Origin: a virus
IMG/VR virus record: IMGVR_UViG_3300047551_000607
Location: 1 to 23,635 of that record
Reading direction: 5' to 3' (one strand)
DNA length: 23,635 nt
Shown: piece after piece, positions 9,237 to 18,073 of the stretch
Layout: every line of letters begins with the position of its first letter
How positions within the stretch are numbered: the stretch's first letter is position 1
Notes under the pieces: model-generated
What the model saw: only the letters and a program-made list of their open reading frames with translations
The model's database searches: none
Told to the model about the DNA's origin: nothing
Program-made: the position numbers and the translations under genes

Positions 9237-11575
9237 TAACAGAAAAAGTAGGTGGATTCAATCACGGATTCGGCCTCAAGGCCGCCGATGATCGGAGGGT
9301 TTGATTGGGCACCGATTTGGTTTCCCCAATCAGTCAAGTAGTCGCGCTCTGCAAACAGGTGCATGTAGGTCTCCCGTACTAAAGTGGACAGGATCCCCAT
9401 GTCAGTAGCCCTGCACAGCACTGAGTCGTGGATCAATGCAATCGGTGCATTGAACCGAAGGGTTGACAAGTGAAGCAGTGACGCATCCAAAGAATGGATC
9501 AGGTTGGGAGCTGTTGCGTTTTTATGGTGAGACAAATCCACCTCGTCGGTTTCTCCAACAGCGGCGGCAATCTTGCACCGACCCAACAGTTGCAACTCAA
9601 TCGATTGGATTTCTTTTTTCATGAGCTTTTGTGTGACGACAAACCCTGATGGGGTTGTCCACTTCAGCTCCTTAGCGCCCGATCGGATTGCTTCTGCAAC
9701 CTGCTCTTCAATCCATTTCATCACAGCCATTGGACCAGGGACCACCTTGTTCATGGCGTCCCGTACAGCCTTTACGGTTGCGGTGAGATCGTCCTTTTCA
9801 ACCTCAACACCCTTCTCCTTCAACGCTTCACGAATGTAGCCACGGTTGGAGTACGGCTTGGCGTTGTAGGGGATGGTCATGACCGTTCGTTTGGTCACTT
9901 TGCGGTCCATGTACGGCTGCACTGTGGCAGGTACATGGGGCCTGGCAGCCTCTGCAATCACCTTGTAAGCATCTTGTGGTCGCTCGCTAGGCAAGACATT
10001 CACAAGACGTGCTGTAGAGGCATCTCGGGCCAATCCAGCCAGGATCTGCAGACCGCTGCAGGTTGCATCAGTGGCGACCATCAACCCCGTGTGCTGACGA
10101 TCACATTCAAGGATGCAGTGGTAGTACTCCTCACAGGCAGCCAAGAACTGCCAAGGCTCTTCCGCTGCTTCCCATTCACTGAGATTGTCGATGGGGTCTT
10201 TGGCGACCCGCCTGATCAACTCTTCGTTTTCAGCCACCCATGTCAGCCGTTCCTGCATGGGGGCTTTGTCCAAGCCGTAGGTGGTGGCGACCTGAAAGGC
10301 CAGCCAGTCTTCGGCTTCATGGGTTAGGAATGACTCCTCATAGAAGCGCAACAACGACTTGCCAAAGTCGGTGTCTTGAGGGGTCAGAAACGCAGGGATC
10401 GGGTACGCCCGTCCTCGATAATCAAACGACCAAGGGATGAAGAACTTCTCCCGCTCCTTGAAGATCTGAACAGCGTTCATCGTCATGCGGGTTCGCACGT
10501 TTCGCTCAAACGCTTGGGCGTTGATGTTTCTCACCTCCGCCGCCCGCCTCCTGTAATCCTTGCGAGAGTCGTAGTTCTCAGCAATGTCTACAGGCTTGGG
10601 AGGCAAAGGTAATTCGACAATCGGGACAAACTTGCCAACTGAGATCTGCTTCTCCAGAAGCGTCTCAGCCACCCCAATGATGAACGGGTTGAGGCGGTAG
10701 GCCACCTTTTGAATCTTGTTCAAAAAGGCGATGGGCGTTTCTCCCTGTATACGGGTGGGATCGCCCCGACGCACCATGTCATGGCCCCGCATGACTTCGT
10801 TGAGCAGGTAACCACCGCAGTGGTCGCTGCTCCAATCGTTGGGTTCGATCAACATGGGCCAAGCCAACGGGCTGAACAGTTCGGCCTGGCCCACCACCTG
10901 ATCCTTGATCTCCAGAAACTCTGGAGTGGGGACGACGAACTGGGGGGTCTTGTTGCCCACCCGTTTGGCCTCCCGCATGAACCAGTTGGTGGATTCGCAG
11001 ATGCAATCCAGCAACCAGCCCCCCAGCTTGATGCGGTTGGCGCGGCCCCAGGCTTGCCAATGGGGCACGTCGTAGCGGTTCATCAAGGTGCTGATCACCT
11101 TCACCTTTTGGTGCGTGCCAATGGAGCGGTGCCAGTAGTTCTCCTGCAGGGTGTGCAGCAACCCCGGCACCTCCCGCTCGTAGTGCCGCATCATGCACTC
11201 CGCTTCCAGGGCCGCCCCGATGGCATCGGTCACGTTCTGGATCTGGGAGCTGGCGGGCTTGACCCCGAACACCTTGTCAAAGGTGACCTTGCAGGCAATG
11301 GCAGCGGCCACCTCCGCTTCCACATCCGTGAGGTACTGCTTGATCTCTGCAAAGGCAACCCCAATCTTGCCTTCGTGGATGCGGTTGTTGGTTTCTTCGA
11401 TCCGTTTCACCACCAACGGAATCAACGTTTGGATGGACGCCACGCCGTACACCGACGCACTGGCGTACTCCTTGTCTTCCAATCGTTGCGTGTTGTCCCG
11501 TAGCTGCTTGAGGCCTTGTCGGATCTGATCGCGTTCCAATCGGATCTGCTCATCGATCTGAGCCGGTGTGGGCAT
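9236..11575 (-). CDS. Phage single-subunit RNA polymerase, T7 gp1-like
   Basis: A 779-residue enzyme (T7 has 883). Palm and finger motifs are clear: MVATDATCSGLQILAGLARD holds the first catalytic Asp at about residue 500, TKRTVMTIPYNAKPY holds the nucleotide-contacting Lys and Tyr at about 560-570, and ALIHDSVLCRATDM holds the second Asp at about 714. The shorter N-terminal part is in line with cyanophage enzymes of the Syn5 type. It would transcribe middle and late genes from phage promoters. The gene is preceded by a terminator, the attP candidate and the integrase gene, so its own expression depends on readthrough or on a promoter in the 85 bases upstream. A candidate internal promoter lies at 10743-10763. 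Confidence 0.96.
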   Translation of the reverse strand: MPTPAQIDEQIRLERDQIRQGLKQLRDNTQRLEDKEYASASVYGVASIQTLIPLVVKRIEETNNRIHEGKIGVAFAEIKQYLTDVEAEVAAAIACKVTFDKVFGVKPASSQIQNVTDAIGAALEAECMMRHYEREVPGLLHTLQENYWHRSIGTHQKVKVISTLMNRYDVPHWQAWGRANRIKLGGWLLDCICESTNWFMREAKRVGNKTPQFVVPTPEFLEIKDQVVGQAELFSPLAWPMLIEPNDWSSDHCGGYLLNEVMRGHDMVRRGDPTRIQGETPIAFLNKIQKVAYRLNPFIIGVAETLLEKQISVGKFVPIVELPLPPKPVDIAENYDSRKDYRRRAAEVRNINAQAFERNVRTRMTMNAVQIFKEREKFFIPWSFDYRGRAYPIPAFLTPQDTDFGKSLLRFYEESFLTHEAEDWLAFQVATTYGLDKAPMQERLTWVAENEELIRRVAKDPIDNLSEWEAAEEPWQFLAACEEYYHCILECDRQHTGLMVATDATCSGLQILAGLARDASTARLVNVLPSERPQDAYKVIAEAARPHVPATVQPYMDRKVTKRTVMTIPYNAKPYSNRGYIREALKEKGVEVEKDDLTATVKAVRDAMNKVVPGPMAVMKWIEEQVAEAIRSGAKELKWTTPSGFVVTQKLMKKEIQSIELQLLGRCKIAAAVGETDEVDLSHHKNATAPNLIHSLDASLLHLSTLRFNAPIALIHDSVLCRATDMGILSTLVRETYMHLFAERDYLTDWGNQIGAQSNPPIIGGLEAESVIESTYFFC
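10743..10763 (-). promoter_or_regulatory. Candidate phage RNA polymerase promoter inside the RNA polymerase gene
   Basis: On the minus strand this reads CGATCCCACC then CGTATACAGGG, and is identical over 21 bases to 18053-18073, the other copy in the same orientation in non-coding DNA. It continues into AGAAACG, so the TATACA-GGGAGA portion resembles the initiation region of T7 promoters (CTATA-GGGAGA). The CACCCGTA core also matches half of the Syn5 promoter as I remember it. Here it lies in coding sequence for DPTRIQGE. Initiation would feed the rest of the polymerase gene and the SSB, endonuclease and replication genes. A chance coding match cannot be excluded for this copy. Confidence 0.45.
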
Positions 11576-11725: not shown

Positions 11726-11766
11726 GATTTTGAGTCGAGTCCGTCTACCAATTCCGGCACGCTCCC
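11726..11766 (-). other. Candidate attP: 41-bp tRNA-Leu gene fragment
   Basis: The minus strand reads as the 5' half of a bacterial tRNA-Leu: acceptor strand GGGAGCG, TG, the D-arm CCGGAATTGGTAGACGG typical of tRNA-Leu, then ACTCGA and the anticodon loop CTCAAAA (anticodon CAA), after which the tRNA pattern stops. The rest of the tRNA (anticodon 3' stem, variable arm, T arm, acceptor 3' strand) is missing, so this is not a functional tRNA. It lies directly downstream of the integrase gene. Prochlorococcus phage P-SSP7 has a similar tRNA-Leu match beside its integrase, described as a possible att site. Confidence 0.75.
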
Positions 11767-11848: not shown

Positions 11849-12790
11849 CTAGATACGCACGTCGCCTTGCGTGCTGACCCCACCTGTGTTATGGACGTAC
11901 CGCTCGGTCATGGCCACTGTGGAGTGACCCATGGCGAACTTAACATCCATGATTGGAGAGCCTGCCGCGATGCGCCAGGTGCCGTAGGTGTGGCGAAACG
12001 TGTGGAACACATGGGCATCGGTGATGCCATCCACGCGGGTCTTGACCACAGACTTCACCGGATTAAATGCCCGGTTGATCTGTTGTCTGTTGATCCAGTC
12101 CTCTCCAAAGATCAAATCGTTTGCGTCCTTGTGGAAGCACAAACGCTCGGCAAGTTCATGAATCCGCTCCGGTAATTGAACGGTTCGGTAGTTGCCCGTC
12201 TTGGTGATGGAGTCCTTCGTACCACCAACGTGGATCAAAGGTACGTTGAGTTTGTAGTCAAAGTCCCGGCGCTTTAGCTTGCGGAGTTCTTGTTGACGCA
12301 GCCCTGTGTAGGCCGCAAACAACATCAAATCCGCCAACTTGTGACGCTCGGTCTCCTTGGCGTACCCACACAACTGCTCGACATGCTCTTTGGTGTACCA
12401 CTCGGTACGACCCATCGTTTCTGCCTTGCGTGGGATGCGTGGCATCTTGGCGAGCATGTCGTGATCCAAGCACTCCTTAAAGGTGGTGCTTAAGAATGAA
12501 CAGAACTTGTTGCAGCTGGAATCACTCCAGTTGTAATGGTCCTGCATCTCGTTGATGATTTGCTTGACGTTGAAGTCGTCAGCAATGTACGCAATCGGAA
12601 TCGCGTCGCTCTCACAAAACTTCTCCAGCTGTTGCATGAAGCGTCTTGCGTTGTGCCCTTGACTGTTCTTCTCTCGATTGAGAGACCACTTGTCATGGGT
12701 TGAAAGAGCAAATTGGAAGGCGTGCTGAAAGGTCTTGATGGTGGACTTTTCAGGCTTGCGCTCCATTAATTTCTCAAGTCTTGTCGCCAT
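11849..12790 (-). CDS. int: Tyrosine recombinase (phage integrase)
   Basis: A 313-residue protein from the ATG at 12790; a second ATG at 12766 with GAG six bases before it is also possible. The N-terminal half is a SAM-like core-binding domain. The catalytic domain has the first Arg in YTGLRQQELRKL, a Lys in GGTKDSITKTGNYRTVQL, HTFRHTYGTW (H-x-x-R), the second His in MGHSTVAMTERY and the nucleophilic Tyr in TERYVHNTG. All six expected active-site residues are present, so it should be active. The gene overlaps the MarR-like gene by 17 bases and is followed by a tRNA-Leu fragment. Together they point to a capacity for site-specific integration, though lysogeny is rarely shown for marine cyanopodoviruses. 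Confidence 0.93.
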   Translation of the reverse strand: MATRLEKLMERKPEKSTIKTFQHAFQFALSTHDKWSLNREKNSQGHNARRFMQQLEKFCESDAIPIAYIADDFNVKQIINEMQDHYNWSDSSCNKFCSFLSTTFKECLDHDMLAKMPRIPRKAETMGRTEWYTKEHVEQLCGYAKETERHKLADLMLFAAYTGLRQQELRKLKRRDFDYKLNVPLIHVGGTKDSITKTGNYRTVQLPERIHELAERLCFHKDANDLIFGEDWINRQQINRAFNPVKSVVKTRVDGITDAHVFHTFRHTYGTWRIAAGSPIMDVKFAMGHSTVAMTERYVHNTGGVSTQGDVRI

Positions 12791-13136
12791 ACAGCAATTG
12801 GGTGATGTGGTGAACAAGCTGCTCCCCTTTTGGGGTCAGTTTGAGAATCGTTCGGCGTCTGTTGGTGGGATCTTCCTCCTTGGTGATCAGATTGAGGCCA
12901 GGCTTGCGAAGCCTGTGGAAACGGGAGAGCCAGTCCGTGTTGCGGCTGCCACTGCTGGTGGTGAAGTTCAAGTCCTGCTCCATCGCCGGTTTGTGGCACT
13001 CATTGTGGGAAGCCACGTATAAAAAAGTGGCTACCACTTGAGCTGGCATCTCTCGATCAAGGACGCGAATGGCTTCGACGACCTTGAGCAGTCGCTCGAT
13101 CTGCGGATTGGTGCGCTGTCTTCTGAGTGGATCCAT
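12774..13136 (-). CDS. MarR-like winged-helix regulator
   Basis: A 120-residue protein. The central part follows the MarR plan: a helix REMPAQVVATFLYVASH, a recognition-helix region with SSGSRNTDWLSRFHRL, and the wing LITKEEDPTNRRRTILKLTPKGEQLVHHI, in which D..NRRR..LKLT.KG is highly typical. MarR proteins bind palindromic operators as dimers and often repress their own or neighbouring genes. It is encoded directly upstream of, and overlapping, the integrase gene, so control of integrase or of the early region is a fair inference. The first 16 codons or so are basic and lie in the overlap with the preceding small frame. No effector-binding residues can be judged. Confidence 0.8.
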   Translation of the reverse strand: MDPLRRQRTNPQIERLLKVVEAIRVLDREMPAQVVATFLYVASHNECHKPAMEQDLNFTTSSGSRNTDWLSRFHRLRKPGLNLITKEEDPTNRRRTILKLTPKGEQLVHHITQLLYGDKT

Positions 13137-15927: not shown

Positions 15928-15975
15928 TGGAATGATCCTCCTGAGGGATTGTGTTGATGTGGAAAGTCTAGCGCA

Positions 15976-15985
15976 GTGGACAGGT
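15976..15985 (-). repeat. Leader motif ACCTGTCCAC, copy in early leader
   Basis: Exact 10-mer in the untranslated leader, 48 bases before the ATG at 15927. It is followed by TTCCACATCAACACAATCC, which resembles the CCACATCCACACAATGC next to the copy at 14838. Confidence 0.55.
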
Positions 15986-16014
15986 GGCATGTAGGTGTGG
16001 GCTCGGGTGCAGCT

Positions 16015-16058
16015 GGCCAGGCTGCCGTATGGCCTCAGCCTCTCACCATCGGAGGCTG
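16015..16058 (-). other. Paired hairpins in the early mRNA leader
   Basis: Two hairpins stand next to each other: CAGCCTC / GAGGCTG (7 bp, 9-base loop, 16036-16058) and GGCCA / TGGCC (5 bp, 16015-16034). They lie in the leader of about 180 bases between the predicted start site and the first early gene. Neither is followed by a T-run, so they are not simple terminators; RNA stability or regulation is possible. Confidence 0.45.
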
Positions 16059-16113
16059 CCCGCTTGCCCTTTTTCTGTTGTCTATGTGCTGACCGCTGCT
16101 GCGATCTGTGGGC

Positions 16114-16142
16114 AATATGCTGCGGATGTGGACAGGTGTCAA
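16114..16142 (-). promoter_or_regulatory. Sigma70-type promoter of the early operon
   Basis: On the minus strand a perfect -35 TTGACA (16142-16137) is followed after exactly 17 bases by CATATT (16119-16114), four of six matches to TATAAT. The predicted start is near 16107. It faces the early small genes. The motif ACCTGTCCAC (16128-16137) lies in the spacer and overlaps the -35 by one base, where a bound repressor would block the host polymerase. Confidence 0.65.
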
Positions 16143-16304
16143 CCATCTTGTGCAGGCTGTCCAACTGTCACACGACAGGGAGGCGCTACAGATCGAGCCT
16201 AATAATTTTGTACTAGCCCAGTGTTGGCCTATGGGTTCCGTGGTAGATTTAGTGTTCCCGGCCCCAGAACCACGCTACATCTGGTGTTCTGAGGCCTTCT
16301 GGTG

Positions 16305-16323
16305 ACTAGATTATTGATCTAGT
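16305..16323. promoter_or_regulatory. Palindromic operator candidate
   Basis: ACTAGATTATTGATCTAGT is a perfect inverted repeat with 7-bp arms and a 5-base centre. It has no T-run and lies in the middle of the control region between divergent transcription units, as expected for a dimeric regulator such as the MarR-like or RHH protein. No second copy was seen. Confidence 0.5.
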
Positions 16324-16517
16324 AGCCCGTTCAGGCCACCCCATAGGGGGGATTTGCGGCCCTGTAGACGCGGTATATGCCTTCAGAAATTTTTGTCAGA
16401 AAGTGAGCCAGATCTGCTGCACTCTGAGACCAACTCACATCACTGTGATACGTTATTGAGGTGGGGCCGCGTGCTTGCAACACCGACCCCGTGACCAACT
16501 CAACCGGAATTGAGCTG

Positions 16518-16700
16518 ATGACCCAAGTCTTACGAGCCCAGGCCAACCTGCAAGCTCTTTCAACAATTGCGACACGCAAACCAGTCCGTGTGACCGCCAC
16601 CTTGTCGTGGTCAACCTACCAACAACTTGTTAGTAAAAGTACTGAAGAAGGACGAAGTGTTAGCAACCTAATGGCGTTCATTCTTGAGACCCATCTATAA
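16518..16700 (+). CDS. Ribbon-helix-helix (CopG-like) regulator
   Basis: The only convincing plus-strand gene in the window, 60 residues from the ATG at 16518 (GTG starts at 16491 and 16461 are also in frame). The C-terminal 40 residues follow the RHH plan: a basic strand KPVRVTATLSWSTYQQLV, then STEEGRSVSNLMAFILETHL, where GRS.SNL..h(I/L)LE..L is characteristic of CopG-type helices. RHH proteins bind operators as dimers through the strand. Its divergent orientation from the early operon, across a 590-bp control region with repeats and a palindrome, fits a repressor or a plasmid/lysogeny-type regulator. It converges with the gene ending at 16728. Confidence 0.75.
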   Translation: MTQVLRAQANLQALSTIATRKPVRVTATLSWSTYQQLVSKSTEEGRSVSNLMAFILETHL

Positions 16701-18020: not shown

Positions 18021-18052
18021 CGTACAGGGGTTCCGGTCCACCCTTCCATTCC

Positions 18053-18073
18053 CCCTGTATACGGGTGGGATCG
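18053..18073 (-). promoter_or_regulatory. Candidate phage RNA polymerase promoter at the genome-end gap
   Basis: Identical over 21 bases to 10743-10763 and in the same orientation. On the minus strand it ends CGTATACAGGG and runs into GGAATGG, so it has a TATACA-GGG initiation-like end. It lies in the non-coding gap just after the large terminase stop and 33 bases before the late terminator. That is where T7 has the right-end promoter phiOR, used in replication and packaging. Conservation in non-coding DNA argues for function. Confidence 0.55.

Follow-up and report, generated by a model that had tools for sequence, protein, structure and literature searches.

A conserved dyad in the predicted terminal repeat of T7-like cyanophages is a candidate site for their own integrase

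Introduction

A short palindrome near the genome ends of a T7-like cyanophage emerges, from comparison with its relatives, as a candidate core-type site of the phage's own tyrosine integrase. Sequence comparison places this dyad, ACTAGAT-TATTG-ATCTAGT, inside the predicted direct terminal repeat (DTR), ties its occurrence to a module of integrase and MarR-like genes, and reveals that its arms covary with the arm of the attachment site, attP. On balance, we favor the reading that the dyad is a core-type binding site for the integrase, likely serving to join the terminal repeats; binding, recombination, and the purpose of circularization we infer from these comparisons. More tentatively, and with something short of even confidence, we propose that T7-like cyanophages circularize by integrase-catalyzed recombination between DTR dyads, a single integrase accomplishing both end joining and host integration, with the two reactions separated by the central bases of their sites.

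T7-like cyanophages are abundant, and they are known to integrate with an integrase and attP, without stable lysogeny. The available passages of one study (PMC8776855) describe a tRNA-Leu system of T7-like cyanophages in which P-SSP7 and S-TIP37 were shown to integrate, the latter in an integrase- and attP-dependent manner, and stable lysogens were not found; the suggestion of an undescribed lysogeny in the initial annotation of this DNA is thereby superseded. As to how the circle needed for integration arises from linear DNA with terminal repeats, we found nothing in the literature searched, the coverage of which was partial. A single-copy, integrase-linked site in the repeats makes circularization directly testable with the existing S-TIP37 mutants, and in metagenomic contigs the dyad can serve to mark genome ends and the capacity to integrate.

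A junction of genome ends

The window, that is, the whole stretch of 23,635 nucleotides analyzed (IMG/VR record IMGVR_UViG_3300047551_000607), is a 23.6-kb fragment with its ends joined. The closest named relatives found, S-CBP3 and DSL-LC07, are both T7-like cyanophages. Positions 15928-16700 represent, by alignment, the concatemer junction where both ends of a T7-like cyanophage genome meet. They are read in this way because P-SSP7, whose genome ends have been sequenced and whose 206-bp DTR was determined experimentally (PMC3350473), and T7 show the same order of parts. As a genome-end junction, the region is not one intergenic unit, and the earlier picture of operators placed between a divergent regulator and the early operon has to be given up: the palindrome lies inside the DTR, and the alignments assign the ribbon-helix-helix (RHH) gene and the early operon to opposite ends of virion DNA, the right and the left, respectively. 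The parts of the junction, none of which carries a strand, are as follows.

15928-16180 (upper limit ~16180): left-end leader upstream of the first early gene (cf. the T7 0-925 region), located with reference to the predicted DTR
16181-16375: predicted DTR, one copy per virion DNA end, from alignment with the P-SSP7 206-bp DTR and T7
16305-16323: within the DTR, the dyad ACTAGAT-TATTG-ATCTAGT, a candidate core-type site of the integrase; exact, conserved in module-carrying relatives, arms covarying with the attP arm
16339-16351: CCCC-ATA-GGGG hairpin of the DTR; at the same place, CCCCCATAGGGGG in T7 and CCCCCGTAGGGGG in P-SSP7
16375/16376: predicted terminus, at the same place as the P-SSP7 left terminus in the junction alignment
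16376-16402: conserved element TATGCCTTCAGAAATTTTTGTCAGAAA just outside the predicted terminus, found equally far from the known termini of P-SSP7 and T7

The window shares with phages of known ends the terminus element, the C/G hairpin, and the arrangement of last and first genes that mark a T7-type DTR junction, and the aligned P-SSP7 junction likewise has this C/G hairpin and, inside its DTR, a palindrome of the same kind. That the DTR stands at both virion ends of this phage is a prediction, and its lower edge (~16181) is approximate by tens of bases, having been set from a conserved ACAGAT motif that lies ~170-190 bp away in most relatives and 233 bp away in DSL-LC07. In T7, with a DTR of 160 bp, sequence comparison locates CCCCCATAGGGGG at about 26-38, an inverted repeat farther in, 66-82 bp from the terminus, and TCAGA-TTTTTATGG just outside. 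The T7 record (NC_001604) further annotates a 925-bp left leader with the leftward host promoter A0 and the rightward A1-A3. With such a leader and a palindrome of its own in the DTR, T7 disproves the view that such a region is missing from T7-like phages.

The element at 16376-16402 is kept in phages with and without the integrase/MarR module alike and is probably, on comparative grounds, part of the terminase recognition or cleavage region. On the minus strand at 16402-16368, and in all relatives, TTGRCA-N16-TATAWC spans the terminus, a sigma70-like promoter that would exist in full only where genomes are joined or at the right end. We rejected it as a junction promoter: it scores above shuffles, yet equally in module-carrying and module-free phages, and is therefore probably a terminase element. 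Contig ends, checked as markers of physical genome ends, gave no consistent pattern.

Linkage of the dyad to the integrase module

The module of the window comprises two genes.

11849-12817, minus strand: tyrosine integrase (Pfam Phage_integrase, 3.4e-21; PHROG integrase, 1.5e-39)
12774-13136, minus strand: MarR-like regulator, phrog_9665 (E 9.3e-47; Pfam HTH_27, weak)

The palindrome is present exactly as first reported. In the window alone, 21% of shuffles of the 586-bp gap give an equal one, and the window holds 14 such repeats; the palindrome is highly significant only because it is conserved in relatives. Another 12 loci, whose surroundings can differ completely, each carry a single exact TAGATN5ATCTA in the corresponding position (for example, GTTAGAT-ACTCA-ATCTAAC in L010), and a TAGAT core matching at 9 or 10 of 10 positions was found in 24 of the first 94 clusters, as compared with 0.14 expected from shuffles. 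Across 260 kb of integrase-carrying sequence there are 18 copies of the exact motif, with a maximum of one per genome. The dyad resides inside the DTRs of P-SSP7, of S-TIP37 (CTCTAGAT-GCTAG-ATCTAGAG, within 150-bp identical ends), and of the distant Syn5, whose integrase follows the RNA polymerase (CACTAGAT-GTCTG-ATCTAATG, within a 237-bp DTR). In these three isolates, for which both ends are deposited, identical sites stand in the same orientation in both genome ends.

Junctions were collected from public viral contigs through searches for terminase, MarR, integrase, and RNA polymerase and were grouped into 132 junction clusters, the terminus of each being inferred with a profile that left the palindrome out. 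A dyad 68-95 bp from the terminus is found in 43 of the 47 clusters with integrase and/or MarR and in 0 of the 27 without (Fisher 2.7e-16), where the clusters, being drawn from metagenomic contigs, are not fully independent, a module-negative call requires that the RNA polymerase be reached, and the dyad thresholds were chosen while viewing the data, the module-negative group nonetheless holding none. The exceptions are three module-carrying clusters devoid of a clear dyad (L367, L279, and L274) and one with a divergent dyad only (L272). Near the RNA polymerase of S-CBP4, S-RIP2, S-B28, and DSL-LC07, there are no module genes, and these phages have no dyad. On the terminase tree the module changes 11 times; among the six well-supported independent pairs, dyad and module change together in 5.8 on average and never in opposite directions (p 0.031). 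The notion that the palindrome goes with an integrase/MarR system, put forward from the window alone, is thus borne out, and the site looks functional.

Three phages separate the two genes of the module. L071, L326, and Syn5 carry the integrase and the dyad, with MarR undetected in the sequence searched (the early region up to 10 kb in L071 and L326, the first 8.5 kb in Syn5), and the retention of the dyad in them therefore points to the integrase. Upstream of the integrase of L071 and L326, MarR seems to have given way to a short ORF of no relation to it, and the ORFs of these two phages are alike (HP-RDEL motif). Second copies of the dyad occur in the gap between integrase and RNA polymerase in 2 of 20 cases (L038 and L248; 0.12 expected). 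As judged from co-occurrence, the dyad-integrase linkage is strong.

Resemblance to the attachment site

The attachment site of the window lies between the integrase and the RNA polymerase and copies tRNA-Leu from the D-arm to the anticodon loop.

11726-11763, minus strand: attP, a tRNA-Leu(CAA) segment ending in the anticodon loop, with core arm ACTCGAC at 11740-11734; the 29-base core is exact in Synechococcus/Cyanobium host tRNA-Leu genes

The host tRNA-Leu(CAA) reads ACTCGAC-TCAAA-ATCGAGC and the S-CBP3 DTR reads ACTCGAC-TGTTG-ATCGAGT. Among 37 phages, the attP arm and the DTR arms agree at 10.73 of 14 bases, compared to 9.10 when permuted (p below 5e-5). Phages with the attP arm ACTCGAC have DTR arms ACTAGAT, ACTCGAC, or ACTCGAT, and those with GCTAGTT have GCTAGAT, GTTAGAT, GCTAGTT, or GTTAGTT. 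Rarer types follow: L321 combines attP GCTGGTT with GCTGGAT in both DTR arms, and L272 combines GCCGGAC with GCAGGAT and GAGGGAT. The first arm base follows the attP type in 3.8 of 4 supported independent pairs on average (p 0.125, a small test). In the window's own phage the match is partial, with ACTAGAT in the DTR and ACTCGAC in attP. The center of the dyad varies between phages and is unlike the anticodon loop, and it is identical in both DTR copies of the isolates with both ends deposited. The dyad therefore has both the attP/attB-like arms and the co-occurrence with the integrase gene expected of a core-type site for a tRNA-Leu tyrosine integrase.

The RHH gene and the left-end leader

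On the right-end side of the terminus lie a small gene and its leader.

16377-16517, plus strand: conserved RHH gene leader with a ATCACTGTGAT palindrome at about 16443-16453; strong in 17 relatives, partial in S-CBP1 and S-CBP3
16518-16700, plus strand: right-end gene of the virion genome, encoding a 60-aa RHH protein (27.5 bits with Pfam RHH_5, cut-off 26; pN/pS 0.04-0.27)

Profile scores and selection mark this gene as genuine, and the plus-strand RHH gene adjoining minus-strand genes that the initial annotation described is indeed real. Its start is corrected to the ATG at 16518 because an upstream 1-bp indel breaks the longer GTG form in many relatives. Homologues are present, unannotated, in S-CBP1 and S-CBP3, that of S-CBP3 scoring 35.1 bits (RHH_5). 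The gene is always on the plus strand and starts just outside the terminus. It occurs in 15 of 45 module-carrying clusters versus 0 of 26 module-free ones and, where module status could not be assigned, in 8 of 23 dyad-bearing clusters versus 0 of 35 dyad-free ones; a function accessory to integration is possible. The leader, among the best conserved DNA of the region, holds two GACCAACTCA repeats in addition to ATCACTGTGAT, and these constitute a possible site of RHH autoregulation. L071 encodes, ~2.4 kb from the terminus on its early side, an early product of ~86 aa with a subthreshold resemblance to RHH_5 (23.2 bits).

On the opposite side, the left-end leader contains one promoter-like site.

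16114-16142, minus strand: sigma70-like promoter TTGACA-17-CATATT, directed towards the early genes (10/12 match)

The sigma70 promoter with a perfect -35 that had been described here is thus present as a sequence, but promoter-like sites in the window number 5 against 4.8 expected, which is chance level, and the -35 box is without conservation in most relatives. The recommended search of related genomes recovers the palindrome in module carriers and, in most relatives, does not recover the promoter -35. GTGGACAGG (TGTCCAC on the gene strand) has four copies in the window's leader, one of them inside the promoter spacer as originally noted; the module specificity of the leader copies is without clear support. 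In the attP flanks of relatives such as L358, L295, L328, L338, L220, L308, and L307, TGTCCAC has ~5x background density, and 11 of 12 occurrences lie 27-28 or 82-84 bases past the attP core start; these are candidate arm-type sites of the integrase.

The leaders of S-CBP3, S-RIP2, and L014 are unrelated to those of S-CBP1 and DSL-LC07, yet whole hairpin blocks are common to them (GAGACTCTCC..GGAGAGTC; CAGGTCGGGTTGCAACC..), as if cassette-swapped. Elsewhere in the window, a 25-base repeat with CCCGTATACAGGG, 96% identical, occupies 10739-10763 (inside the RNA polymerase gene) and 18049-18073 (between terminase and ThyX) and is a candidate promoter of the phage RNA polymerase.

Candidate roles of the dyad

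Under the favored reading, location in the DTR would give each linear genome one dyad per end, in the same orientation. The dyad arms are similar to the anticodon-stem arm of tRNA-Leu, which serves the integrase at attP/attB, and their 7-bp spacing recalls an anticodon loop. Integrase would bind the core-type dyad in each DTR and join the two terminal repeats, or cut monomer circles from concatemers, yielding a circle with one repeat that could then integrate at tRNA-Leu through attP; the different central bases would keep DTR x DTR recombination apart from attP x attB. Weighing against end joining, the ~10-bp phasing of the dyads goes beyond what simple recombination would demand; T7, which lacks an integrase, has a palindrome in a comparable position; and LUZ100 has an integrase without a dyad in its DTR. 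Homologous recombination between DTRs could moreover offer a dyad-free route to circularization.

It is unlikely, although the best surviving of the alternatives, that the MarR-like regulator uses the dyad as its operator, repressing transcription across the joined ends of the circular or integrated genome. MarR and integrase are nearly always found together, such that the module association fits both proteins; a MarR dimer would fit the 10-bp spacing of the half-sites; TAGTT half-sites in one clade accompany an altered recognition helix (SRNTTWLTG); and MarR control has been proposed for LUZ100. Nonetheless, the dyad persists in the three phages in which no MarR was found in the sequence searched, its arms track attP, and a comparable site upstream of MarR occurs in 0 of 30 loci (0.39 expected), so that the regulator's own promoter does not carry one.

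A smaller chance still attaches to the integrase binding the dyad without recombining, the binding serving to mark or block the terminus, for example, by stopping the terminase from cutting joined ends. This would account for the helical phasing: across 66 dyads in junction loci the distance to the terminus is quantized in ~10-bp steps, with peaks at -71, -81, and -91 (R 0.70 at 10.5 bp), as if a bound protein must face the terminus. The perfect two-arm geometry and phage-specific center look instead like a crossover site.

Short dyads are common targets of RHH proteins, and the RHH gene is confined to phages with the module. That the palindrome is an RHH operator in a lysis/lysogeny or timing switch, as originally suggested, is nevertheless very improbable. 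Most dyad-bearing phages have no RHH gene, including 27 module clusters and the named phages P-SSP7, S-TIP37, and S-SRP01; conversely, L018, L020, and L024 pair an RHH gene with a decayed dyad. Such a switch is further disfavored by the placement of the gene and the early operon at opposite virion ends and by the failure to find stable lysogens in T7-like cyanophages. We therefore reject the RHH operator; more generally, a temperate repressor-operator switch is not supported, since the dyad is not tied to a repressor, occurring without RHH and also where MarR was not found in the sequence searched. Least probable of all is that the dyad serves only the packaging or replication of T7-type terminal repeats and has no connection with the integrase: the T7 DTR holds a palindrome at a similar distance, but the dyad is missing in 27 of 27 module-free relatives, in which the remainder of the junction element is retained, and we reject a general packaging element on that account.

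Comparison with known systems

The Cre/loxP system of phage P1 joins terminally redundant ends. The likeness is that identical direct sites in the two linear ends, acted on by a tyrosine recombinase, would give a circle; the differences are that here the integrase targets a tRNA gene, the site is a 7-5-7 dyad in a fixed T7-type DTR, and the recombination is a proposed one. With the tRNA-Leu integration system described for P-SSP7 and S-TIP37 (PMC8776855), the phage studied here shares the integrase family, the attP, and the kind of phage; the second, terminal-repeat site is not mentioned in the available passages of that source, and our literature search, partial in coverage, returned no publication describing it. 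LUZ100, for which MarR-based lysogeny control was proposed (PMC10134795), likewise has MarR and integrase adjoining the phage RNA polymerase gene, but its 244-bp DTR is without the dyad. The T7 and P-SSP7 DTR and leader (PMC3350473; NC_001604) provide the closest architectural parallel, with a terminus, a C/G hairpin at about 26-40, a palindrome further in, and early promoters in the leader; the differences are a TAGAT-type dyad confined to integrase/MarR-carrying cyanophages and a plus-strand RHH gene at the right end.
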